The translations under genes were made by a program, and so were the position numbers. A DNA stretch of 64,000 bases, taken from positions 1 to 64,000 of IMG/VR virus record IMGVR_UViG_3300021420_000017. One strand, written 5' to 3'. Below, one piece after another: positions 9,768-24,392 of the stretch. Under the pieces are notes generated by a model. That model made no database searches. It was given only the letters and a program-made list of their open reading frames with translations, and was not told the origin of the DNA. The DNA is from a virus. Within the stretch, counting starts at the first letter, position 1. Each line of letters begins with the position of its first letter.

Positions 9768-10469
9768 ATGACCCTCACCCCTGCCGCCGGAGTTGAACTT
9801 AAGGCCCTGCTCGCCAGTAACGGGACCTCTGTCACTGATCTTCTGGAGCGTCTAGCCACTCGGCCCAAGCCGCCGACCGACGAGGACCGCAAGCCGATCC
9901 CTGTCGTGGTGCCGGTCAGCGACGAGCAGAAGAAGATCCTCAAGGCCATCATCGCCCGCGCCGAGAAGTTCGCCTTCCCGGCCGAGCCTCGCGTGCTTAC
10001 CGACGCCGAGGCGCGGGAGGCGATCTCGATCTATCGGGACATCAAGCAGGCCTCCGCCGCGCTGGCTAACTTCGAGGCAGCCTTCAAGGCCACTTTCCAC
10101 AACTCACTCGACGTGGCCCTGGTTGCGGCCGGGGAGGACAAGGGAGTCCCCCAGAACGGTGATGGGCACTACGTCGCGCGGGGCGAGATCGCCCCCGCCG
10201 GGATCGAGGTCATGATCCGGCGTGAGACCTCCGGTGGCGCGGCTGCTGCGCTGACCCTGGCGGATTTGGCCGACATGGAGGCCAAGGGCGACATCACGCA
10301 CAAAGAGTACCTCGCGATGACCCGTGAGGTGCCCCGGGTACTGGTCCCCGACGCGATCATGGCCCACGTACGCAAGGCGCCCGAGTTCACCAAGGTGCTC
10401 AAGCGCTATGCCCGGCTGACCACCCCGACCGCGAGCATCAATATCCGACCGAACAAGGTCAAGAAGTAG
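9768..10469 (+). CDS. hypothetical early protein with its own promoter, 233 aa
   Basis: Well-expressed codon usage, ATG right after the GTCGCCAA box. A proline-rich linker (about 30-50) precedes a helical region with YRDIKQASAALANFEAAF and a basic C-terminus (NIRPNKVKK). Position between small genes and the exonuclease suggests a role in DNA metabolism or host takeover. No family recognised. Confidence 0.75.
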   Translation: MTLTPAAGVELKALLASNGTSVTDLLERLATRPKPPTDEDRKPIPVVVPVSDEQKKILKAIIARAEKFAFPAEPRVLTDAEAREAISIYRDIKQASAALANFEAAFKATFHNSLDVALVAAGEDKGVPQNGDGHYVARGEIAPAGIEVMIRRETSGGAAAALTLADLADMEAKGDITHKEYLAMTREVPRVLVPDAIMAHVRKAPEFTKVLKRYARLTTPTASINIRPNKVKK

Positions 10470-10660: not shown

Positions 10661-10722
10661 TGGCCGAAGCGTCTGGGCCTGCGCCCCTGATGGAGTGCTG
10701 TACGCATGCTGACTACAATTGA
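10660..10722 (+). CDS. possible 20-residue peptide
   Basis: ATG in a TGATG overlap, ends TGA at 10720-10722 inside the start of the next gene. Contains CC. It may only serve translational coupling. Weak. Confidence 0.25.
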   Translation: MAEASGPAPLMECCTHADYN

Positions 10723-10909
10723 GAACTACCGTGTGCTGGTTCGTCAGGCGCCGTGTCCGTTCTGCGAGGCGCAGCCCGGCGAGCCGTGCGTGAAGTGGTA
10801 CCCGCCGCCTCCCGGACCAGCCATCTGCACTGCGCCGATTCCATTGGAGTATGTGCACGATGATCGCAGTGCGGTCTATCACTTTAACTTCATTTTCAGT
10901 CGCCGCTAA
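10706..10909 (+). CDS. small zinc-binding phage protein, 67 aa
   Basis: The motif APCPFCEAQPGEPCV (about 15-29) is the typical CxxC...PGxxC metal knuckle of tiny actinophage proteins. Role unknown. Confidence 0.65.
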   Translation: MLTTIENYRVLVRQAPCPFCEAQPGEPCVKWYPPPPGPAICTAPIPLEYVHDDRSAVYHFNFIFSRR

Positions 10910-10924
10910 AGTTGAGGACTTGTC

Positions 10925-10978
10925 ATGCCGGATGAGAGAGTAGAGCGCAAGATCGCGATGGAGGACCCTCTCCGCTGA
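10925..10978 (+). CDS. possible 17-residue leader peptide before the Lsr2 fusion
   Basis: Starts ATG 10925 (MPDERVERKIAMEDPLR) and stops with TGA overlapping the next ATG (TGATG). It could couple or regulate translation of the Lsr2-fusion gene. Only the overlap geometry supports it. Confidence 0.25.
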   Translation: MPDERVERKIAMEDPLR

Positions 10979-11739
10979 TGGGCAAGATTCTTGTCCCCGT
11001 CGAGGTCGAGCTGCCGGTCTTCGATACCCCTGACGGCCGTGACTTCTGGTCCGACCCGAGCATGGATCGGCCCCGCTTCCAGACCGCGCAGGCCGCTCGG
11101 ACCTTCTTTGGTCGCACTGGCCGTTGGCTGCTTCAGGTGCCCGGGGAGGACGGCTACCAGCTCGACGGGGTGCCGATCGTGATCGATCGAACCCCGGGAG
11201 GGCGCCGGAGTTGGACTCTCTATGACGTCGAGCGGGTGGCTCATGGACTTACTCAAAAAGGCCGTATGCAAGTCGCGCATTTACAACGTGTAATTGCGCA
11301 GGTAAAGTTACTGGCGGAAAACTATAAGTATTTGCCCCAATCGGAACTTGGCGCTCTAGTCACTCCACAGAGCGCCGAGGTGTACAGGAAGGCGCGCATG
11401 GCGACCCAGCTCATGAGCCTCGTGTCGGATGACATGGACGGTTCGGCGGGCGCTCGGACGCGGCACTTCGCGATCGAGAACGTGCGCTACAAGATTGACC
11501 TCACTGACGTTAACTGGGAGGCCTTCCTTACCGCAGTCGGGCCCTTCATGCTCAAGGCCAGCCCGGACAAGCGCCGCCGCTTGGCCAGTTCGGATGAGAT
11601 CAGAGAGCGAGCTGAGATCCGGGCCTGGGCTCAGCAGAACGGCAGGGCGGTCGGGGCTCGTGGGCGGATCCCACTAGAGGTGGTCGAGTCCTACCGCCAG
11701 GCGCACGAGTCCGCTGGCAAACACGCTCAGCCGGAATAG
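10978..11739 (+). CDS. MerR-like HTH fused to a full-length Lsr2-type xenogeneic silencer
   Basis: 253 residues. The N-terminal half (about 20-110) has AARTFFGRTGRWLL and SWTLYDVERVAHGL, the pattern of a MerR-like HTH protein of actinophages. The C-terminal half aligns along all of Lsr2: a dimerisation region (LMSLVSDDMDGS, YKIDLTDVNWEAF, about 140-185) and the AT-rich-DNA-binding domain (IRAWAQQNGRAVGARGRIP, about 215-235) with the minor-groove RGR. Lsr2 in actinobacteria binds and silences AT-rich foreign DNA. A phage copy could protect its own DNA, redirect host silencing or act as an anti-silencer. An AT-rich codon patch (11269-11345) sits near the domain junction. Confidence 0.85.
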   Translation: MGKILVPVEVELPVFDTPDGRDFWSDPSMDRPRFQTAQAARTFFGRTGRWLLQVPGEDGYQLDGVPIVIDRTPGGRRSWTLYDVERVAHGLTQKGRMQVAHLQRVIAQVKLLAENYKYLPQSELGALVTPQSAEVYRKARMATQLMSLVSDDMDGSAGARTRHFAIENVRYKIDLTDVNWEAFLTAVGPFMLKASPDKRRRLASSDEIRERAEIRAWAQQNGRAVGARGRIPLEVVESYRQAHESAGKHAQPE

Positions 11740-11927
11740 TGCACAAGGCCCACGTCGAGGGCGTCGGGAGCCTGTATCGATCGATCTGCTCGTCGGGCGA
11801 CTATTCCTCGGCGTGGTTGCTGGAAGAGGTCTACGCCCAGATTCGGGGCAACCAACACTGCCGTGCGGCCAACAAGGCTGAGCGCAAGAGGTTAGCGAGG
11901 GAGCGCGGCGGTGTTAATGATACTTGA
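11739..11927 (+). CDS. hypothetical protein, 62 aa
   Basis: GTG start sharing a base with the preceding TAG. Basic and helical at the C-terminus (NKAERKRLARERGG). Overlaps the exonuclease start. No family recognised. Confidence 0.6.
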   Translation: MHKAHVEGVGSLYRSICSSGDYSSAWLLEEVYAQIRGNQHCRAANKAERKRLARERGGVNDT

Positions 11928-12786
11928 CGGGAACAATCTGGGCATGAGGAGCTTTCATGCAGCTAAGGGTTCGATGTCCTCTAAGGGCGAGGAAACGGGC
12001 GCACTTCATCTCTTTGTGACGGCCCTCGCCAAGTACGTGCGGGACGAGCGCCCTGACCGGCTCCTGGTGGTCTGGGATTCCCCTGGTGGCTCCTTGGTGC
12101 GCCAGCAGATCTATTCGGGCTACAAGGCCAGCAGGAGGGCCGCACAGGCGGCCTCTGGCCAGGAGGCCGAAGCCCACCGTCCGCTGTTCCGGCTGATCAA
12201 GCAGTTCCTGCACCTGGCCGGGGTCGAGCAGTGGCAAGTGCGCGGCTTCGAGGCGGATGACCTCATCGCCGGGGTGTGGCGAGTGCATCGTCACACTGAG
12301 AAGATCGTCATCCTCTCCAGCGACAAGGACATGCTCCAGCTCCTGGACGAGAACACCGAACAGGTGCGCTTCAGTTCCTACAGCGCCCCGACCGATCGCT
12401 GGACGCGCACCCGGGTCATCACCGACATGGGCTGTCGGCCTGAGCAGATCCCCTTGATGATGGCCCTGACCGGGGATTCCTCCGACGGGGTGCCGGGCAT
12501 GCGCGGCATCGGGCCCAAGAAGGCCCTGAAGATGCTGGATGCCGCCAACTGGGATCTGGATAAGGCGATGGCGCCCTATCCCGAGCACTATTCCATCGTG
12601 AAGACCTCTCAGGCCCTGGTGGATCTTGCCTACCCCGCAACCATGATCGAATGCCCGGAGGTGCCTGACATGGACCTCACGGATTCGCAGGACGATCTGT
12701 GGGTGCAGTTGCTGGGTTTCTGCCAGTACTACGAGCTGTCCGTGATTGAGGAACTGCTTACAGCACAAGGGCTCTGGTCTCGATGA
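11911..12786 (+). CDS. FEN-type 5'-3' exonuclease
   Basis: 291 residues. The acidic metal-binding motifs of the PolA-exo/T5-exonuclease family are present: ILDGNNL at about 4-10, GFEADDLIAG near 112-121, SSDKDMLQLL near 136, and TGDSSDGVPGMRGIGPKKA near 187-205, which joins the third acidic site to the helix-hairpin-helix. Such enzymes remove RNA primers and 5' flaps, here for the DnaE-type polymerase encoded downstream, which lacks this activity. GTG 11911 is preferred over ATG 11917 because of the spacing from GAGGGAG. Confidence 0.9.
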   Translation: MLMILDGNNLGMRSFHAAKGSMSSKGEETGALHLFVTALAKYVRDERPDRLLVVWDSPGGSLVRQQIYSGYKASRRAAQAASGQEAEAHRPLFRLIKQFLHLAGVEQWQVRGFEADDLIAGVWRVHRHTEKIVILSSDKDMLQLLDENTEQVRFSSYSAPTDRWTRTRVITDMGCRPEQIPLMMALTGDSSDGVPGMRGIGPKKALKMLDAANWDLDKAMAPYPEHYSIVKTSQALVDLAYPATMIECPEVPDMDLTDSQDDLWVQLLGFCQYYELSVIEELLTAQGLWSR

Positions 12787-12945
12787 TGTTGGAGTGCGCA
12801 GACCGGATCAAGTGAAATGATCATGCGACACGCCCAGCATCGCTGACAGTTGCTCGTACCCGTGCCGTGGGATAACGTTCACGCTCGGTGGCGGTTCACT
12901 TGGTTTGACCAGGACCCGACATCGGTTCTAAACCCCCGTTGCGTA
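12787..12945. other. non-coding spacer between exonuclease and terminator
   Basis: No open frame with coding character. TTTGACC near 12904 followed after 16 bases by TCTAAA could be a weak promoter, firing straight into the hairpin at 12946; this would give only a very short RNA. Confidence 0.4.
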
Positions 12946-12979
12946 GCCTCGCCCCGCACTCTGATCTGCGGGGCGAGGC
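12946..12979 (+). terminator. strong GC-rich hairpin terminator
   Basis: A perfect 13-base-pair stem (12946-12958 with 12967-12979) and an 8-base loop. No U-tract follows, which is frequent in GC-rich actinobacterial genomes. It closes the operon ending with the exonuclease and separates it from the replisome operon. Confidence 0.8.
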
Positions 12980-13005
12980 GTCCCCCGTCTGGTAGGTGAT
13001 CTTCG

Positions 13006-13371
13006 TTGACCGCAGTTGTAGAACGTGGGTCGTCCAGAGGCGGAGATCACAAGCGAAGAGATGTAGATAACAAGCAACTGTTCCAAGCAGTCAAAGACAA
13101 TCGCAGTTGTCGCTTCTTGTTGTCACCCGATTGGGTGATTGAGGGCTACCTCGCTGGCATCAGCACGTTCCACTATGTTGTAGTATCTGGTCTGCAAGAC
13201 GGTACCGTCGCCAAATATCAGATCCACAAGGGACTCACCCCTGTTATCGACCTGACTGCTCGTCATCTGCTAGAAGATGAGCACCAGGCAGTTCACGACG
13301 CGTTGAGCGAGATCATTGCTCCGTTCAGGGCATGGGTAATGTCTAACCACTTCAACTCACCGAAGGTTTGA
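13006..13371 (+). CDS. small beta-rich protein, possible Sm/Hfq-like fold, 121 aa
   Basis: Only TTG 13006 offers an in-frame start near the beginning. The core RFLLSPDWVIEGYLAGISTF, then VVVSGL and KYQIHKGLTPVI, has the strand pattern and 'GyL.giS.f.vvv...IHK' spacing of Sm-like RNA-binding proteins. This is only a resemblance by eye. First gene of the replication operon, overlapping the next in its last bases. Confidence 0.55.
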   Translation: MTAVVERGSSRGGDHKRRDVDNKQLFQAVKDNRSCRFLLSPDWVIEGYLAGISTFHYVVVSGLQDGTVAKYQIHKGLTPVIDLTARHLLEDEHQAVHDALSEIIAPFRAWVMSNHFNSPKV

Positions 13372-13379
13372 GGGCTAAA

Positions 13380-13814
13380 GTGACTGACCAGTTACTGTGG
13401 TTTGACTCGGAAATCGATGTTGACCCCACTCTGCGCAGGACTGTTGTTGAGATACATACATCAGTGACCACAGTGAGTGAAGAGCTGGCGATCATCCGAG
13501 AGGATGCCCGACCTCGATCCTATGTTTCTCAAAACGATGAGCATTGGGATTGGGAAGCATTGCGTGACTATGTAGTGGAACAGATCGAGAAGCGCCACGG
13601 CATGTTCCCCCGAGAGGGAGCCAAGGAGAAGGCGATCTTCGCCCGCTTCATCAAGGACTGGGGCCCCCGGGCCGCCCCGATCGCGCGTTACGCCTTCGAG
13701 GTGCGCGGGGGGATCTGGAAAGGTGCCCCGATCAAAGTCACCCGATTCACCAAGGCTTGCGATCCCTATTTCGCCGCTGAGATCGACACGTACCTGCAGG
13801 CCAACCAACCTTAG
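13380..13814 (+). CDS. replication-operon protein of unknown function, 144 aa
   Basis: GTG 13380 chosen because GAGGG lies 5 bases upstream; a TTG at 13368 is in frame. The C-terminal half (EKAIFARFIKDWGPRAAPIA, then GGIWKGAPIKVTRFTKACD) is well conserved in style and basic. Placed directly before the helicase loader, it may assist loading or initiation. Confidence 0.65.
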   Translation: MTDQLLWFDSEIDVDPTLRRTVVEIHTSVTTVSEELAIIREDARPRSYVSQNDEHWDWEALRDYVVEQIEKRHGMFPREGAKEKAIFARFIKDWGPRAAPIARYAFEVRGGIWKGAPIKVTRFTKACDPYFAAEIDTYLQANQP

Positions 13815-13823
13815 CTCTACCTC

Positions 13824-13831
13824 GTCGCCAA
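13824..13831 (+). promoter_or_regulatory. GTCGCCAA leader box before the helicase-loader gene
   Basis: GTCGCCAAACACC precedes the AAGG ribosome site and GTG 13861. A weak -10 (TAGCTC at 13812-13817) lies 6 bases upstream, but no good -35 is seen. It matches the leader motif found upstream of about ten other genes here. Confidence 0.45.
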
Positions 13832-13860
13832 ACACCGCCTGCCCCCGAAGGTTGACCTCC

Positions 13861-14706
13861 GTGAAAACGCTGCCCGCTCTTCCCGCGTCCGTGCGGACGC
13901 TGACTGAAGACGAGATTGAGCGCCTGCGTAAAACGCGCACCCTGCCCGCCAGCCCAGAGGACTGTCCGACCTGTCATGGCCGGAAGACCTTTCGCTGGTG
14001 GGAGAAGGATCGAGGGATCCTGCCACAGGATCGCGTCGCGGTGGATTACGTGTGCTCCTGTGTCGATCAGTTCCTCCTCCATCGCTACCTGATGAACTCC
14101 GGGTTGGAGATGGCTGCCGCTCGCCACCGGTGGGCCGACCTGACGGCTCTCTCACCTGAAGTCATGGCTCCGCTGTTGGAGTATCTAAACGACATCGAGT
14201 TTTTCATGCTGCAGGGAACAGGTCTGTTCCTGCACGGGATGAATGGGGCGGGCAAGTCGATGTTCGCCTCCCTACTGGCCAAGAGGGTCCTCCAACTGGG
14301 CAGCTACACCGTGCGCTATGTGCGCTTCACCGAGCTGTTGGATCACTATCGGTCTAGTTGGCGCGATAACGAGCAGCGTGAGTGGTTTGAGGGCTCGATG
14401 CGCAATGCTCATCTGCTCGTGCTCGATGACATGGGCAAGGAGTATGACGGGGTGCTTCGGGTCGCGATGTCGGCGGTCGACACGATCATTCGCTTCCGGA
14501 CGCAGAACTCCATGCCCACGATCGTGACCACCAATCTCGATCGCGATGACTTTCAGACGCGCTATGCGAAGTCGGTCAATGAGCTGGTCACTGAGGCATG
14601 CCGGGTATCAGAGTTCATCATTGACAGTTCTTGGAGGGCGTCAGCGCGAAACCGCAAGGAGATTGAGTACGCCCAGCGTGTGACCGTCCCGATTACTTTC
14701 GGCTGA
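13861..14706 (+). CDS. DnaC-like AAA+ helicase loader
   Basis: 281 residues. A zinc-finger-like N-terminus (CPTCHGRKTF ... VCSCVD, about 35-70) is followed by an AAA+ core with Walker A GMNGAGKS (about 126-133), Walker B LLVLDDMG (about 184-191) and a sensor region TIVTTNLDRDDF. This is the layout of DnaC/DnaI-type loaders, which place DnaB on single-stranded DNA. The start is GTG 13861; the frame is open further upstream, but that part reads as non-coding. Confidence 0.85.
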   Translation: MKTLPALPASVRTLTEDEIERLRKTRTLPASPEDCPTCHGRKTFRWWEKDRGILPQDRVAVDYVCSCVDQFLLHRYLMNSGLEMAAARHRWADLTALSPEVMAPLLEYLNDIEFFMLQGTGLFLHGMNGAGKSMFASLLAKRVLQLGSYTVRYVRFTELLDHYRSSWRDNEQREWFEGSMRNAHLLVLDDMGKEYDGVLRVAMSAVDTIIRFRTQNSMPTIVTTNLDRDDFQTRYAKSVNELVTEACRVSEFIIDSSWRASARNRKEIEYAQRVTVPITFG

Positions 14707-14710
14707 CACA

Positions 14711-16033
14711 ATGAACTATTCAGAACAAGTTATCTATAGTCATCTGACCAATGCCGACTCGTTAGACATCATTGCCAAGGAAGGGTTCAACAATCCCGTC
14801 AGCTTAGAGGTCATCCCGACCGAGGCCGGGCGCAGACTGATCACCTGGACCCTTCGCTACTTTTTTGACTCCAACCGGATGATCGCTCCCTCCAAAGAGG
14901 CGATCCTGGAAACGTGGGGAGAGGTGATGGAAGCCACTGATATCTCGATCGAGGATGAGGTCGAGACCGACACCGTCCAGTGGGCCATTGAGACCCTGCG
15001 TAGCAATCACGTCAAGCGCGAAGCCAGCGAGTGGGCACAGACCTTCTCTCGCAGTGTGTATGAGGCCGACTCCCATGAGCGCGTGACGGAGTTGATCAAA
15101 GGGAGCCAGCGTCTGCACCAGCTTGCCGAGCAGGTGCGCAGTCGTCGGCATGAGATGGACGGCCTGGAGGGGGTTGACGACGCGATCATGCGCTACAACC
15201 AGCGCGTGGCCGAAGGAAACTCTCGGGGCGGCATGATGCTCGGGATTCCGGAGATCGATGATCATATGTATGGGACACACCCCGGGGAGATCACCACTAT
15301 TTGTTCGGCGAGTGGTATCGGGAAATCGTGGTGCGCTGGTCACATCGCCTACAGCGAGTTCACTCGGGGTCGCCGGGCGGTCCTGGTGACGCTAGAGAAT
15401 GATATCGAGATGAGCTATGACCGTTTGGTATGCATGGCGGCGAAAGTGCACTACGAGTCCTGGCAAAGGGCCGAAGCGCTGCCTGAGGAGATGACTCGTG
15501 TAGCGCAGTTCAGGGAGCAAATGGACGCCAGCGAGAAGCGGCCACTGGTCTCCCAGTTGCCGATGGAGGAGCGCACCCCGAGCGCCATCGTGCGTCATGC
15601 CCAGATGCAGGGCGCCGACTCACTGATCATCGACCAGTTGTCCTTCATGCGGCCCGAGGCCAGCTCTAAGATGCGCGAGAGGCATAGCCAGGTGGCCGAG
15701 ATGATGCACAAGCTCAAAGAGCTGGTCAGCGGAGATATCAAGATGCCGGTGGTGCTGATGGCCCAGATTAACCGGGAGGGGATCTCGGCCGCTCGCAAAG
15801 AGGGCCGTTTTTACAAGGATCATCTGGCAGATTCAGCCGAAGTGGAGCGCACTAGTGATTTCCTCTGGGCGATCTACCAGGACTCAGAGATGGCCCTGGT
15901 GGACTGGGCCGAGTGGCAGTCGCTCAAGGCGCGCCGGACTTCGGAACGACACTTCCGGACGATCTGGCGACCCCAGGTTGGGGACATCCGGGTGTTGGAG
16001 TCCGACATCACGATCGGGAAGAAGACTCCATGA
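14711..16033 (+). CDS. dnaB-like: replicative DnaB-like helicase
   Basis: 440 residues. Walker A SASGIGKS near 199-206, motif LVTLENDIEMSYDRL near 231, Walker B LIIDQLSF near 304, and MAQINREG near 353. These match RecA-fold DnaB/gp4-type replicative helicases. The N-terminal 150 residues form a helical domain. It lies between the loader and the primase, overlapping the latter by 4 bases, so loader, helicase and primase are made together. Confidence 0.88.
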   Translation: MNYSEQVIYSHLTNADSLDIIAKEGFNNPVSLEVIPTEAGRRLITWTLRYFFDSNRMIAPSKEAILETWGEVMEATDISIEDEVETDTVQWAIETLRSNHVKREASEWAQTFSRSVYEADSHERVTELIKGSQRLHQLAEQVRSRRHEMDGLEGVDDAIMRYNQRVAEGNSRGGMMLGIPEIDDHMYGTHPGEITTICSASGIGKSWCAGHIAYSEFTRGRRAVLVTLENDIEMSYDRLVCMAAKVHYESWQRAEALPEEMTRVAQFREQMDASEKRPLVSQLPMEERTPSAIVRHAQMQGADSLIIDQLSFMRPEASSKMRERHSQVAEMMHKLKELVSGDIKMPVVLMAQINREGISAARKEGRFYKDHLADSAEVERTSDFLWAIYQDSEMALVDWAEWQSLKARRTSERHFRTIWRPQVGDIRVLESDITIGKKTP

Positions 16034-17073
16034 GTACGTGGTCCTACTCGCTTATGCCCGATGAGCAGAAGCGCGAGCTGTGTCTTGAGCTACTGGAGGA
16101 GTTCGGCGCGACCGGCATCCAGGAGACCACCAAGGGCGAGTTACGTCATCGGTGCACGTTACCTATCGGTGCTCATACCGATCGCAACTCCATCACCGCT
16201 TCGGTAAACTATCGCAAACTAGTTTTTCGGTGCTATGTATGTAACAACCGGGGCGGTTTGCTGTGGTGGATCGCCACCAATCGGGGTGAGAACACTGAGC
16301 AGAGCGAGAAGTGGCTTTCCAAGGAATCCGGTGTCAGTGAGGTACTGGATCTACCGATGTTGCTCAAGCTCATTGAGGCTCTGGCTCGGCCTAAGAATAC
16401 TGAAGTCCAGCCGATGCCTACCTACGATGAGCGCATTCTGGATAGCTGGCGTCGCTGGCGGATCTTTCATCCTTATCTGACACTCCCGATCTCCGAGGGA
16501 GGGCGGGAGTGTCCCGAGGTCAATCTCGCTCGCTACAAGGTCGGCTATTGCGATGAGGATGTGCACTGGCGCTATCACCAGCGCATCATCATTCCGCTAC
16601 ATTGGAATGGCGCCCTGGTCGGTTGGCAGGCTCGCAAGTTACTAGAAGACGACCCTGAGCCAGCCAAGTATAGGAACACTCCTCAATTTCCGCGCGATCG
16701 TACTGTTTACGGCGATTTGGGGGAACGGGATATCGTGCTGGTGGAGAGCCCGCTAAGTGTGCTGCGTCACGCGCATCACCTGCCTATGGTGGCCACCTTC
16801 GGATCGGCTGTGAGTGATATGCAGATCCCATTACTCCACCGCTATCGGCGAGTGACTCTCTGGTATGACAATGATAAGTCTGGCTGGGAAGGGGTCTACT
16901 CGTTGATTGCTCGGCTGAAGAATTATGTCGACCTGCGCATTGTGGATTCTCCATGGGATGCTGACCCTGCCGACATGACCGAGGCCGAGGCGGCCGAGCT
17001 GGTTGAGGGAGCTATTCCCTATATGCTCTGGAGCAAGCCAATGACACTGACGCACTATGAGAGAGCAGCCTGA
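16030..17073 (+). CDS. dnaG-like: DnaG-type primase
   Basis: 347 residues. A zinc-binding module at about 38-75 (RHRCTLPIGAHTD ... FRCYVCNNRGGLLWW) and a Toprim domain with the glutamate in IVLVESPLSVLRHAH (about 237) and the acidic pair in TLWYDNDKSGWEG (about 277). It synthesises RNA primers for the DnaE polymerase. The zinc-finger codons (16201-16245) are AT-rich relative to neighbours. ATG 16030 overlaps the helicase stop. Confidence 0.88.
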   Translation: MSTWSYSLMPDEQKRELCLELLEEFGATGIQETTKGELRHRCTLPIGAHTDRNSITASVNYRKLVFRCYVCNNRGGLLWWIATNRGENTEQSEKWLSKESGVSEVLDLPMLLKLIEALARPKNTEVQPMPTYDERILDSWRRWRIFHPYLTLPISEGGRECPEVNLARYKVGYCDEDVHWRYHQRIIIPLHWNGALVGWQARKLLEDDPEPAKYRNTPQFPRDRTVYGDLGERDIVLVESPLSVLRHAHHLPMVATFGSAVSDMQIPLLHRYRRVTLWYDNDKSGWEGVYSLIARLKNYVDLRIVDSPWDADPADMTEAEAAELVEGAIPYMLWSKPMTLTHYERAA

Positions 17074-19831: not shown

Positions 19832-19871
19832 GACTGGATCTGATCCGACCCCGTAGCGGAGCTGTGTGCGC

Positions 19872-22800
19872 ATGTACCAGTTAATCCAGCAATACGGGGA
19901 GCACGGCCAGTGGGAAACCCCCGCTGGCCGTGTCTTCCCCGTCCCCTCTCTCGTTGAAGATGCAGACGGCCTGAGGTTGTTTCTGTGTGGTGCATTGATC
20001 CCCAAGCAAGCTTGGGAGTCTGCTCGTGCGCAGGAGGTGCAGGGGCTGTTGCGAGTGCTCGGTGAGCACTCCTACTGTCCGGCCGAGGAGTTCGACAAGA
20101 CGCGCCGTACGAATCTGGTCGCAGCGGCTTACGAACTCCCTGAGTCTTCATGGCATCCTGTCGAGCCAGGATCGGTGTATGAGATGCACCATCGGGTGCG
20201 GGAGTCGGCGCCTGTGCTACCCGACAACTCGTTTGTACATTTACATACACATTCGGAGTTTAGTCCGTTAGATGGGCTCTCCACGATGGACGAGATCGTT
20301 GGTGCCGTCCAGGCTGATGGGCAGAAAGCTATTGCTGTCACCGACCACGGCAACTGTGCCGGTCATCCGGCTCTTCAGTCAGCCGCCCGTGAGGCCGGGA
20401 TCAAGCCCATCTTCGGCATCGAGACCTACTTCGTTGATGATCGTCATTCCCGGGAAGGTGCCAGCAACGCCTATACCCACCTGGTGTTATGGGCCCAGAA
20501 TCAGCAGGGCCTGAAGAATCTCTGGGCATTGTCGACGGAGGCCTACCGTGAGGGCTTCTATCACAAGCCCCGAGTCGACTGGGATACGTTGACCAGGCTG
20601 AACTCCGGGCTGATTATGTCCACTGCGTGTCTCGGTGGCCCGCTTGCGCGTCCCTATCTCGCTGGTGACCCCGAGCTGGCCATGAGTAACTTCTCCCGAC
20701 TCGGTGACATCTTCGGCAAGCGCATGGTCATTGAGCTGCACGCCAACCACCTGGAAGACCAGATCAAGGTCAATCACTGGCTGGTGCCACTGGCCCAGAA
20801 ATATGGCGTTCCGCTGGTGGCTGCTGTGGATGCCCACTATGCCGAGGCCGAGCACCGTGATGATCATCAGGTTTGGCTGGCCATGACCACGAACTCCGAT
20901 GTGGATGATGAGTCCAGCCTGTTCGGGGGTGGTCAGAGCTATCACATGATGGGAGTGGCCGAGGTCCGCGATGCTTTGAGCTACCTTCCGGCCGAGGCGG
21001 TCGAGTCGGCCATCGCGAATACGGGCAAGGTCGCGGACATGTGCAACGCCGAGATCATTCCGAAGAAGGGGATGCCGCACTACTCCCGGCCCACTCCCGA
21101 GCACCCGGACGTGGTCGCCCACGATGCTCAGCGGCTCCTGCAGATGTGCAAGGACAACTGGGACGAGCGCATCACCAAGTACGTGCCCAGGGAGGAGCAG
21201 GGGCCCTATCTCGACCAGATCCGCTATGAGGGCGGCTTGATCGTTGATAAGGAGTATCCGGGTTATTACCTCACAACCTCTGATTTCGTGACTTATGCCA
21301 AAGACAACGGCATACTTGTCGGACCCGGACGAGGTTCGGGAGCAGCCTCGCTTGTCGCCTATCTCGCCCGTATCACCGAAATCGACCCAATCCAGGGCAG
21401 GTTATCACTGGATCGGTTCCTGACCGTCGGGCGCAAGTCGCTGCCCGACTTCGACATCGACTTCCCCAGCTCGCGCAAGGATCAGATGATCACTTATGTG
21501 CAGCAGCGCTGGGGGGAGGAGCATGTGGCCCAGATCGGCAACCACATGCGACTGCAGAACAAGGGCACATTCAAGGGAGTGCAGTCCGCGATTGCCTCCC
21601 GGCTCCCCGGCGACAGCTATGGCGCAGTAGTGATGATCAACAAGATTATCGAGGCAGCCGAGGCATCTACGGCGGGGTTAGGACTGTCGTGGTCAGACCT
21701 GTTTGCCCAGGTTGGCGAGTTGCTCGAACCATACCGGCAGTCCTACCCGGAGTTGTTCCGTCTTGCCGAGCGCTTCCGGGGGCGCCTGAGGACCTATTCC
21801 ACGCACGCGGCCGGGCTCGTCATCGATCCCGACGTGGACCTCTATGCCGAACTGCCGATGCGCAACGGGGCGGCAGGCGGCCCGATGGTCACCCAGTGGG
21901 ACATGGCAGCCCTGGAGCCCTTGGGCTACGTCAAGTACGACTTCCTCAACCTGCGCAACCTCGACACGCTGCAAGAGACCATCGATATCATCCGCAACAC
22001 CACCGGTTCCACGATCGATGTCTATGGCTGGCGGGATGAGTATGAGGATCCCGAGGTCTATGAGGAGCTGGGTAGCGGCTGGACGATGGGCGTCTTCCAG
22101 ATCGAAACCTCGCTGGGTACCAGGACCACCAAGCAAATTCGCCCACAGACGCGCGATGAGCTGAGTGACGTCATCACACTGGGTCGTCCCGGTCCGATGC
22201 GCTCCGGCCTGGACAAGATGTACATGCGCCGTCGTGCCGGGCAGGAGCAGGTGGCCTACGCCGATCCCCGGCTCGAAGAGGTCCTTAAAAGGACATGGGG
22301 CGCAATGTTATACCAAGAAGACATCATGGCTGTGTGTCGTATCTTGGCGAACTACGACGCAGACGAGGCAGACCATGTCCGCAAGATCCTGGGCAAGAAG
22401 AAGGTCGATGAGGTTGCCGAGGAGGGTCTGCGGTTCATCGCTCGTGCGGTCGAGAATAATGTGGCTAGAAAGAATGCAACGGACATCTGGGATCAAATGG
22501 GAGAGTTCGCAAGATACTGCGTAACGGGAGATACAAAGATACATCTTGCCGGGAGCAATGCTAACTCTGACGGCACGATCGAGGTGGAAGCGTTGTACCG
22601 CCGAATCCATGCCCCGAAAGGTCTACGGCGATTAGATCAGGATGAGTGTGATGGTTGTGGTCGTGCGCTATTGAAACATGCTACAACGACTATCTGTCCT
22701 CCATGCCGTTCCTGGCGTATTAAGTTCCATGATCCAAAGCGTGCGTTGTATGGGTTGAGTTATTATGCCGATGATCGGATCAGACCAGCTCGGATCTTGG

Positions 22801-24392
22801 ATGTGATTGAGAATGGAAATCGAGAGGTATTTGAGGTCACATTAGCCGATGGCAAGTCTATTATGGCTACTGCGAATCATCGACATCTTAGCGATAAGGG
22901 ATATCGACGAGTTGACGAGCTTTCCATTGGTGATTCATTATTAATTGATGGGGGTTATGAACCGCAACAGCATGAGCCCAAAAATAGATTGACCAAAGGT
23001 GATCGGCAGGGCGCTGGATATGTTAATGGTGCTTTCGGAGAAGATAACGTTGGCTATATCGATGGCGGTCATGCATATTGGAGTGCATGGCGAGCGGTAA
23101 ATCCTAGAATCTGTGCTCAATGCGGTGAAAAAGATGGGCGTATTGAGACGGCTCATCTTGATGGAGATCACACCAATAATATTGAAGGTAACCTGGCGTG
23201 GCTATGCGTGTCCTGTCACAAGTCTTATGATTACGCCCATAATGACCGACGACGACGGTGGCAGAAAGGTCATCTAGTTAAGTCAGTTGCGATTGTCTCT
23301 ATCAAGAGTGCGGGGGTGAGACCCACTTACGATGTCGTGATGGATGCTCCGCACAGCTTTGTCGCTAATGGTATCATTTCTCATAATTCGTTCAACCGTG
23401 CGCATGCCTATGCATATGCCACATTAGCGATCTGGACCGCTTGGTTCAAGGTCCATTACCCTCGTGAGTTCATTACCGCTTCTATGGCGACGGTGGACAA
23501 GGAACGGATCCCGCAGTTCGTTGGCGAGGCCCGCCGTATCGGCTATCAGGTGCTCCCCCCGGATATCAACATCTCCGGGCGCGGATTCACCGGCCACGAG
23601 CTGACGATTCGCTACGGGATCGAGGGCATGCCCGGCATCCGGGAAGCTAAGGCGCTGGGCGCGCTCGCTGGACAGCCCTACGCCAGCTTCGAGGACTTCC
23701 TGGAACGCAAGGGGCCTAAGTGCGACTCAGGTACGACGAAGAGGCTCATCCGGGTCGGCGCTTTCGAATCGATCGCCCCGAATCGACGGGCGCTGGAGGC
23801 GCGGATCGCTGATGATGAGTCGGGTGAGTCCACCAAGTGCGTAGACAAGGACGTGACCTTCGTCAATGAGTTCGATCTGCCGTGCCACTTCGACTGGACC
23901 AGTGAACCGATCCAGCTCGGGCGCACGGGCAAACCGCTGAAGAACCAGAAGAAGCCGCCGAGCAAGTGCACCAAGGCTTGCCGTCACTACCGGGCTAAGC
24001 CGCAGAGTAGCTATGAGCACATCGAGCCCTACACCGAGGAAGAGATTCGTAATATCGAGGTGGAGATGCTGGGCGTCTATCTCAGTAGCTCTCCGTTCGA
24101 CCGGGTCCCCGTCGAGGTGATGTCTCAGCTCCTGTCGGCCGACGATCTGGCGGTCGCGGAGTATGGCACGCACGCCATCGTGGGGATCGTGCATACCGCA
24201 CGCCCAGACCCCAAGGGCCGCGACTTTGGTTTCGTCACTATCCACACGCATTCGGGCTCGCTGGACGCCATCGTGTACTCCACTCAGTGGAACATCTGGT
24301 ATCCGCTGCTCAAGCGCGGGCAGATGGCATTGATGGAGATCATCAAAGATGATCAGGACCGTTATCGCCTCTACCTCTTCGAACCTATTTAG
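19872..24392 (+). CDS. dnaE-like: DNA polymerase III alpha subunit (DnaE type) interrupted by an intein
   Basis: About 1506 residues including a 290-residue intein. A PHP domain starts at FVHLHTHSEFSPLDGL (about 120). The polymerase core has GPGRGSGAASLVAYL (about 485) and the catalytic acidic residues in LPDFDIDFPSSRKDQ (about 523-537). Then come GRPGPMRSG, GAMLYQEDIMA, the intein, the continuing FNRAHAYAYATLAIWTAW and an OB-type C-terminus (HAIVGIVHTARPDPKGRDFG). It is the phage replicase. ATG 19872 is chosen over GTG 19866 because GGAG at 19858-19861 is too close to the latter. Confidence 0.93.
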   Translation: MYQLIQQYGEHGQWETPAGRVFPVPSLVEDADGLRLFLCGALIPKQAWESARAQEVQGLLRVLGEHSYCPAEEFDKTRRTNLVAAAYELPESSWHPVEPGSVYEMHHRVRESAPVLPDNSFVHLHTHSEFSPLDGLSTMDEIVGAVQADGQKAIAVTDHGNCAGHPALQSAAREAGIKPIFGIETYFVDDRHSREGASNAYTHLVLWAQNQQGLKNLWALSTEAYREGFYHKPRVDWDTLTRLNSGLIMSTACLGGPLARPYLAGDPELAMSNFSRLGDIFGKRMVIELHANHLEDQIKVNHWLVPLAQKYGVPLVAAVDAHYAEAEHRDDHQVWLAMTTNSDVDDESSLFGGGQSYHMMGVAEVRDALSYLPAEAVESAIANTGKVADMCNAEIIPKKGMPHYSRPTPEHPDVVAHDAQRLLQMCKDNWDERITKYVPREEQGPYLDQIRYEGGLIVDKEYPGYYLTTSDFVTYAKDNGILVGPGRGSGAASLVAYLARITEIDPIQGRLSLDRFLTVGRKSLPDFDIDFPSSRKDQMITYVQQRWGEEHVAQIGNHMRLQNKGTFKGVQSAIASRLPGDSYGAVVMINKIIEAAEASTAGLGLSWSDLFAQVGELLEPYRQSYPELFRLAERFRGRLRTYSTHAAGLVIDPDVDLYAELPMRNGAAGGPMVTQWDMAALEPLGYVKYDFLNLRNLDTLQETIDIIRNTTGSTIDVYGWRDEYEDPEVYEELGSGWTMGVFQIETSLGTRTTKQIRPQTRDELSDVITLGRPGPMRSGLDKMYMRRRAGQEQVAYADPRLEEVLKRTWGAMLYQEDIMAVCRILANYDADEADHVRKILGKKKVDEVAEEGLRFIARAVENNVARKNATDIWDQMGEFARYCVTGDTKIHLAGSNANSDGTIEVEALYRRIHAPKGLRRLDQDECDGCGRALLKHATTTICPPCRSWRIKFHDPKRALYGLSYYADDRIRPARILDVIENGNREVFEVTLADGKSIMATANHRHLSDKGYRRVDELSIGDSLLIDGGYEPQQHEPKNRLTKGDRQGAGYVNGAFGEDNVGYIDGGHAYWSAWRAVNPRICAQCGEKDGRIETAHLDGDHTNNIEGNLAWLCVSCHKSYDYAHNDRRRRWQKGHLVKSVAIVSIKSAGVRPTYDVVMDAPHSFVANGIISHNSFNRAHAYAYATLAIWTAWFKVHYPREFITASMATVDKERIPQFVGEARRIGYQVLPPDINISGRGFTGHELTIRYGIEGMPGIREAKALGALAGQPYASFEDFLERKGPKCDSGTTKRLIRVGAFESIAPNRRALEARIADDESGESTKCVDKDVTFVNEFDLPCHFDWTSEPIQLGRTGKPLKNQKKPPSKCTKACRHYRAKPQSSYEHIEPYTEEEIRNIEVEMLGVYLSSSPFDRVPVEVMSQLLSADDLAVAEYGTHAIVGIVHTARPDPKGRDFGFVTIHTHSGSLDAIVYSTQWNIWYPLLKRGQMALMEIIKDDQDRYRLYLFEPI
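22518..23387 (+). mobile_element. intein with HNH homing endonuclease in DnaE
   Basis: Begins with Cys in ARY/CVTGDTKIHL and ends with His-Asn in GIISHN, followed by Ser of the extein SFNRAHAYAYA. The splice-block B histidine is in ATANHRHLSDKG; block F is TYDVVMDAPHSFV. The central insert holds an HNH endonuclease (CAQCGEKDG, TAHLDGDHTNN, LCVSCHKSYDY) and, near the N-terminus, a separate zinc-ribbon-like motif (CDGCGRAL ... CPPC). Length 290 residues. Its codons are much more AT-rich than the exteins, a sign of recent transfer. It should excise itself to give active polymerase. Confidence 0.92.

Follow-up and report, generated by a model that had tools for sequence, protein, structure and literature searches.

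The window analysed here is a stretch of 64,000 nucleotides from the 146,650-b virus record of a large phage, probably one with an actinobacterial host. It carries a gene that joins a DUF7229 domain to a complete Lsr2 protein (Table 1). The gene lies in an ordered row that consists of a weak match to DUF7242, two small genes, the fusion gene itself, an exonuclease, a DnaC-like loader, the DnaB helicase and a primase. A strong Shine-Dalgarno sequence precedes the fusion gene, with a duplex energy of -9.3 kcal/mol, and the gene product contains three Pfam domains, one DUF7229 and two Lsr2, all of which score above their curated cut-offs. The sequence-only reading of an ORF that joins a MerR-like helix-turn-helix to Lsr2 is thus confirmed, in a single intact frame. 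A search of the whole record found no second Lsr2 and no second DUF7229.

Table 1. Features of the fusion gene and its surroundings (window positions; residues are those of the fusion protein)
Feature	Position	Strand	Basis or remark
Probable DUF7242 gene, upstream	9768..10469	+	PF23890, E=7.7e-4, below cut-off; order as in Myrna, I3 and E3
DUF7229-Lsr2 fusion gene	10978..11739	+	ATG 10978 to stop 11739, 253 aa; ORF and Pfam matches
DUF7229 / MerR-like winged-helix domain, residues 33-110	11074..11307	+	PF23875, AF2 model, PDB matches
AT-rich tract	11240..11349	+	GC 0.436, lowest 1.3% of 110-bp windows
Linker, residues 111-140	11308..11397	+	in-frame codon usage; helical, low confidence in models
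Shine-Dalgarno-like AGGAAGG (11386-11392) and in-frame ATG 11398 (M141)	11386..11400	+	duplex -6.5 kcal/mol
Lsr2 dimerisation domain, residues 141-194	11398..11559	+	PF11774; Foldseek 4e1p, prob 1.00
Lsr2 DNA-binding domain with RGR, residues 211-242	11608..11703	+	PF23359; 2kng, 6qkp, 6qkq
5'-3' exonuclease	11911-12786	+	downstream of fusion
DnaC-like loader	13723-14706	+	downstream of fusion
DnaB helicase	14711-16033	+	downstream of fusion
Primase	15913-17073	+	downstream of fusion; replication genes together 11911..17073

Several smaller features are found nearby. A small phage zinc-finger protein (PF24623) is encoded at 10706-10909, adjoining the fusion gene, and a possible leader ORF of 17 codons (10925-10980) ends in a TGATG that spans the fusion start codon, an overlap that suggests translational coupling. 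Further downstream, a DnaE-like DNA polymerase (19866-24392) contains an apparent intein that begins ...FARY-CVTGDTKIH... and ends ...FVANGIISHN-SFNRAHAYAYA. The intein includes an HNH-like CxxC...H...CxxC stretch, and a PHROG HNH endonuclease profile matches residues 1095-1134.

The N-terminal half matches PF23875 with E=2.6e-7 (31.1 bits, against a cut-off of 27.0). DUF7229 is a phage family: gp205 of mycobacteriophage I3 is annotated as "MerR-like helix-turn-helix" and gp68 of RedWattleHog as "helix-turn-helix", while the member from Rhodococcus phage E3 gives a match to HTH_17 (E 1e-3) that falls below the cut-off. Residues 1-140 were modelled with AF2 together with 13 viral relatives; the model reached a pLDDT of about 90 for residues 31-110 and has the order helix-helix-wing-helix-helix. 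Two short helices of low confidence lie past residue 120. Foldseek placed this model closest to the MerR family, which accounts for all of the top 16 PDB chains, including HiNmlR, CarH, GlnR, MtaN, TnrA and CvkR, several of them bound to DNA. The best E value was 0.058 and none was below 0.05, and the MerR-like assignment made from the sequence is therefore borne out at the level of the fold only. The winged helix is shared with sensor-less MerR-family regulators such as HiNmlR, GlnR and BldC. Unlike these regulators, the fusion has no evident MerR dimerisation helix, and the Lsr2 dimerisation domain follows instead.

Lsr2 is a bacterial silencer of foreign DNA, and phage-encoded Lsr2 proteins are common. 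The C-terminal half of the fusion follows Lsr2 from the dimerisation region to the RGR motif, as had been claimed. PF11774 matches with E=2e-10 (40.6 bits, against a cut-off of 29.6) and PF23359 with E=2.5e-11, with the RGR at residues 228-230. PHROG 1223 ("nucloid associated Lsr2-like") covers residues 141-245 with E=1e-22, and the PDB Lsr2 chains 2kng, 6qkp and 6qkq also match by sequence. The description of the Lsr2 as full-length turned out to be exact, as M141 of the fusion aligns with Met1 of Lsr2. Aligned with Lsr2 proteins, the fusion is 30-42% identical and keeps the DD pair (residues 151-152), Y171 and I173-D174-L175 of the YxIDL strand, W217 and the RGR. In a full-length AF2 model, the Lsr2 half is of high confidence and its best match is 4e1p, with 2kng lower down; this model is reliable in the Lsr2 half only, because its alignment lacked DUF7229 rows. 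The Asp28-Arg45 salt bridge of the dimer is not kept, the aligned residues in the fusion being Glu and Leu (numbering from PMC3374832). This bridge, reported for M. tuberculosis Lsr2, is a structural feature rather than a requirement of the family, and the nearest viral Lsr2 that was found (L003/L037) also lacks the Arg, so that phage Lsr2 proteins evidently vary at this site.

The point where the two halves meet has features that might be expected of a gene start. AGGAAGG lies 5 nt upstream of the ATG of M141, and translation of a separate Lsr2 may begin at this codon. The Shine-Dalgarno match is only suggestive, since 16% of internal ATGs score equally. The AT-rich tract is located 50-160 bp upstream of M141 and includes a sigma-70-like site (11280-11308), the sole promoter-like site between 9.5 and 12 kb, where 0.7 would be expected by chance. 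The tract and its site might be an active internal promoter or a relic of one; a drop in GC upstream of phage lsr2 loci has been reported (PMC8612146). Given the two chance figures, the start and promoter cues are each weak when taken singly and may be relics of a captured gene.

DUF7229 exists as a stand-alone gene in cluster-C-like mycobacteriophages and in E3, Skog, CherryTomatoes, RedWattleHog and Phrappuccino. In seven phages (these five, Myrna and I3) the Lsr2-less gene is closely followed by a gene for an exonuclease, a thymidylate kinase or an aminotransferase and by the DnaC/DnaB/primase cluster. I3 gp205, Myrna gp181, E3 gp142 and Phrappuccino gp105 all share the domain of the fusion and its position before this cluster, and where checked they come after DUF7242, for which Myrna, I3 and E3 have a strong match as upstream neighbour. 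The fusion gene thus occupies the syntenic place of DUF7229 between DUF7242 and DnaC/DnaB, with the DUF7242 match of the window itself below the cut-off. The stand-alone proteins differ from the fusion in lacking Lsr2 and in often having acidic N-terminal and WREREGW-type C-terminal extensions.

PF11774 is absent from all seven of these phages and from all 12 IMG/VR records with DUF7229, several of which are copies of the same seven phages and some of which are fragments. None of the 16 IMG/VR DUF7229 loci has Lsr2 within the same ORF and, conversely, none of 72 viral Lsr2-like loci has DUF7229. In a scan of all the loci gathered (0.92 Mb), the window and copies of it were the only places with both domains in one ORF. 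A second fusion was not found among 34 DUF7229 and 92 Lsr2 ORFs, of which the window supplies five each, and the fusion is thus a singleton, known from one metagenomic virus contig. A search based on DnaB found no closer phage with a fusion, and single-protein scans gave one Lsr2 relative or none. The condition set for refutation, separate halves in all relatives, gives a mixed picture: every DUF7229 phage relative examined lacks Lsr2, and those checked have none elsewhere either, so that the fusion is conserved nowhere else, but the fused ORF is itself intact. Because the gene sits in the same place as its relatives, and these lack Lsr2, it is the ortholog of the stand-alone DUF7229 gene, extended by a whole Lsr2. 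Most simply, a conserved DUF7229 gene would have captured an entire lsr2 at its 3' end. With only one instance known, selection on the fusion itself cannot be demonstrated.

Both domains also occur in other combinations. The one cellular DUF7229 locus, found by a pattern scan in an Actinomycetota MAG contig (L109:3449-4258), has DUF7229 preceded by a different N-terminal region of about 180 aa that has no Pfam match, and shows that DUF7229 combines with other partners too. The domain was seen in no other genome in a 395-genome sample of the class to which this MAG belongs. Six viral loci (L086, L087, L093, L098, L107 and L108) encode proteins that have unrelated N-terminal parts and end in the Lsr2 DNA-binding domain only, which makes this end of Lsr2 a widely reused module. 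A Cys/His-rich leader, LGWCMTGHHxxCPVRT.SGxxCGCxCHAGKK, directly precedes Lsr2 in frame in the viral loci L038, L043, L046 and L052, and a similar stretch is found upstream of Lsr2 in the plasmid locus L007; it may be a zinc-knuckle leader not yet characterised, or else part of a longer Lsr2 N-terminus. Streptomyces phage Kamino, Gordonia phage BrutonGaster and some plasmid Lsr2 genes seemed to match the N-terminal half as well, but these matches were tblastn read-through over stop codons and no fusions.

The coupling of sequence-specific binding to silencing or anti-silencing, proposed from the sequence, is a prediction that follows from the domains. The reading that we favour, to which we give about an even chance, is that the fusion is a site-anchored Lsr2 dimer that bridges DNA and serves to regulate or organise the DNA of the phage itself. 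The Lsr2 dimerisation domain would hold two monomers together, in place of the MerR dimerisation helix, of which none is evident. The winged-helix heads would then bind a specific operator, which probably lies in the phage DNA close to replication or middle promoters, while the Lsr2 tails bind AT-rich DNA in its minor groove. The outcome would be an anchored DNA bridge. A search for repeats upstream of the fusion gene gave no convincing operator site.

For Lsr2 to form chains, residues 1-3 must be lost; the contact is then made by the N-terminal strand of the dimerisation domain, and residues before Lys4 are described as blocking it sterically (PMC3374832). In the fusion, 140 residues precede the Lsr2 part and occupy this blocking position, so that dimers should be allowed and chain growth blocked, judging from the in vitro structure of another Lsr2 (PMC3374832). 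With its Lsr2 N-terminus blocked, the fusion should not extend chains by itself and would at most seed or end a chain of host Lsr2.

The same structural argument can be turned towards the host. The fusion might hetero-dimerise with host Lsr2 and end its chains on phage promoters or pull them apart, thereby relieving silencing. A DNA-bound transcription factor is able to disrupt an Lsr2-type complex (PMC7002338), and phage Lsr2 proteins that lack the DNA-binding domain have been proposed to act as dominant negatives (PMC10066036). The fusion, however, retains that domain, unlike the truncated proteins, and we consider such counter-silencing rather doubtful. It is unlikely, in our estimate, that the fusion is an operator-guided, N-terminally capped Lsr2 that seeds or terminates host chains, possibly together with a short polymerising Lsr2 from the same gene.

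The internal start raises the related idea of a gene with two products, in which the long fusion anchors a short, M141-started Lsr2 that polymerises at chosen sites. The coincidence of M141 with Lsr2 Met1, the AGGAAGG before it and the AT-rich tract with its promoter-like site, in keeping with the GC drop at phage lsr2 loci, would all fit, but the frequency of equally good internal ATGs and of chance promoter-like sites makes this decidedly unlikely. The apparent intactness of the Lsr2 start, Shine-Dalgarno site and AT-rich upstream region would fit a recent read-through that is neutral, or an artefact of assembly or sequencing, in which two adjacent genes were joined by loss of a stop without any joint function. 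The occurrence in a single metagenomic contig and the atypical GC3 of the linker (lowest 3.5%) point the same way. However, there is one open frame that requires no frameshift, and key residues are kept in both halves. In each segment, the linker included, codon usage is better in frame than in either alternative frame, so that the junction looks genuinely coding. We regard a functionless join as quite unlikely and retain the site-anchored, DNA-bridging dimer as the preferred reading.

Phage Lsr2 proteins, such as the Streptomyces BD and mycobacteriophage cluster A Lsr2, have the same dimerisation and DNA-binding domains as the fusion, but are as a rule about 100-165 aa long, and none of those gathered has DUF7229. 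A parallel in architecture is the Ku-Lsr2 of cluster J phages (Omega, Corndog), also a phage protein with a C-terminal Lsr2 module (PMC8612146). Its partner is Ku, however, and it includes only the last ~30 residues of Lsr2, the DNA-binding part, whereas the window fusion has the whole of Lsr2 with the dimerisation domain. What is new is the union of a DUF7229-type helix-turn-helix with a whole Lsr2 in one protein; among open-licence papers, none was found on DUF7229 or on a helix-turn-helix joined to a full Lsr2.

Silencers such as Lsr2 pick their targets by AT content, and their spread depends on N-terminal chain growth. The fusion would be a naturally occurring, site-aimed version of such a silencer, in one genome so far. 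With a site-reading head at the N-terminus of Lsr2, it would offer a ready-made test of whether blocking that end stops spreading, and of whether the host silencer is aimed or disarmed by phages. For DUF7229, which is conserved among large actinobacteriophages, it would also be a first way into the function.
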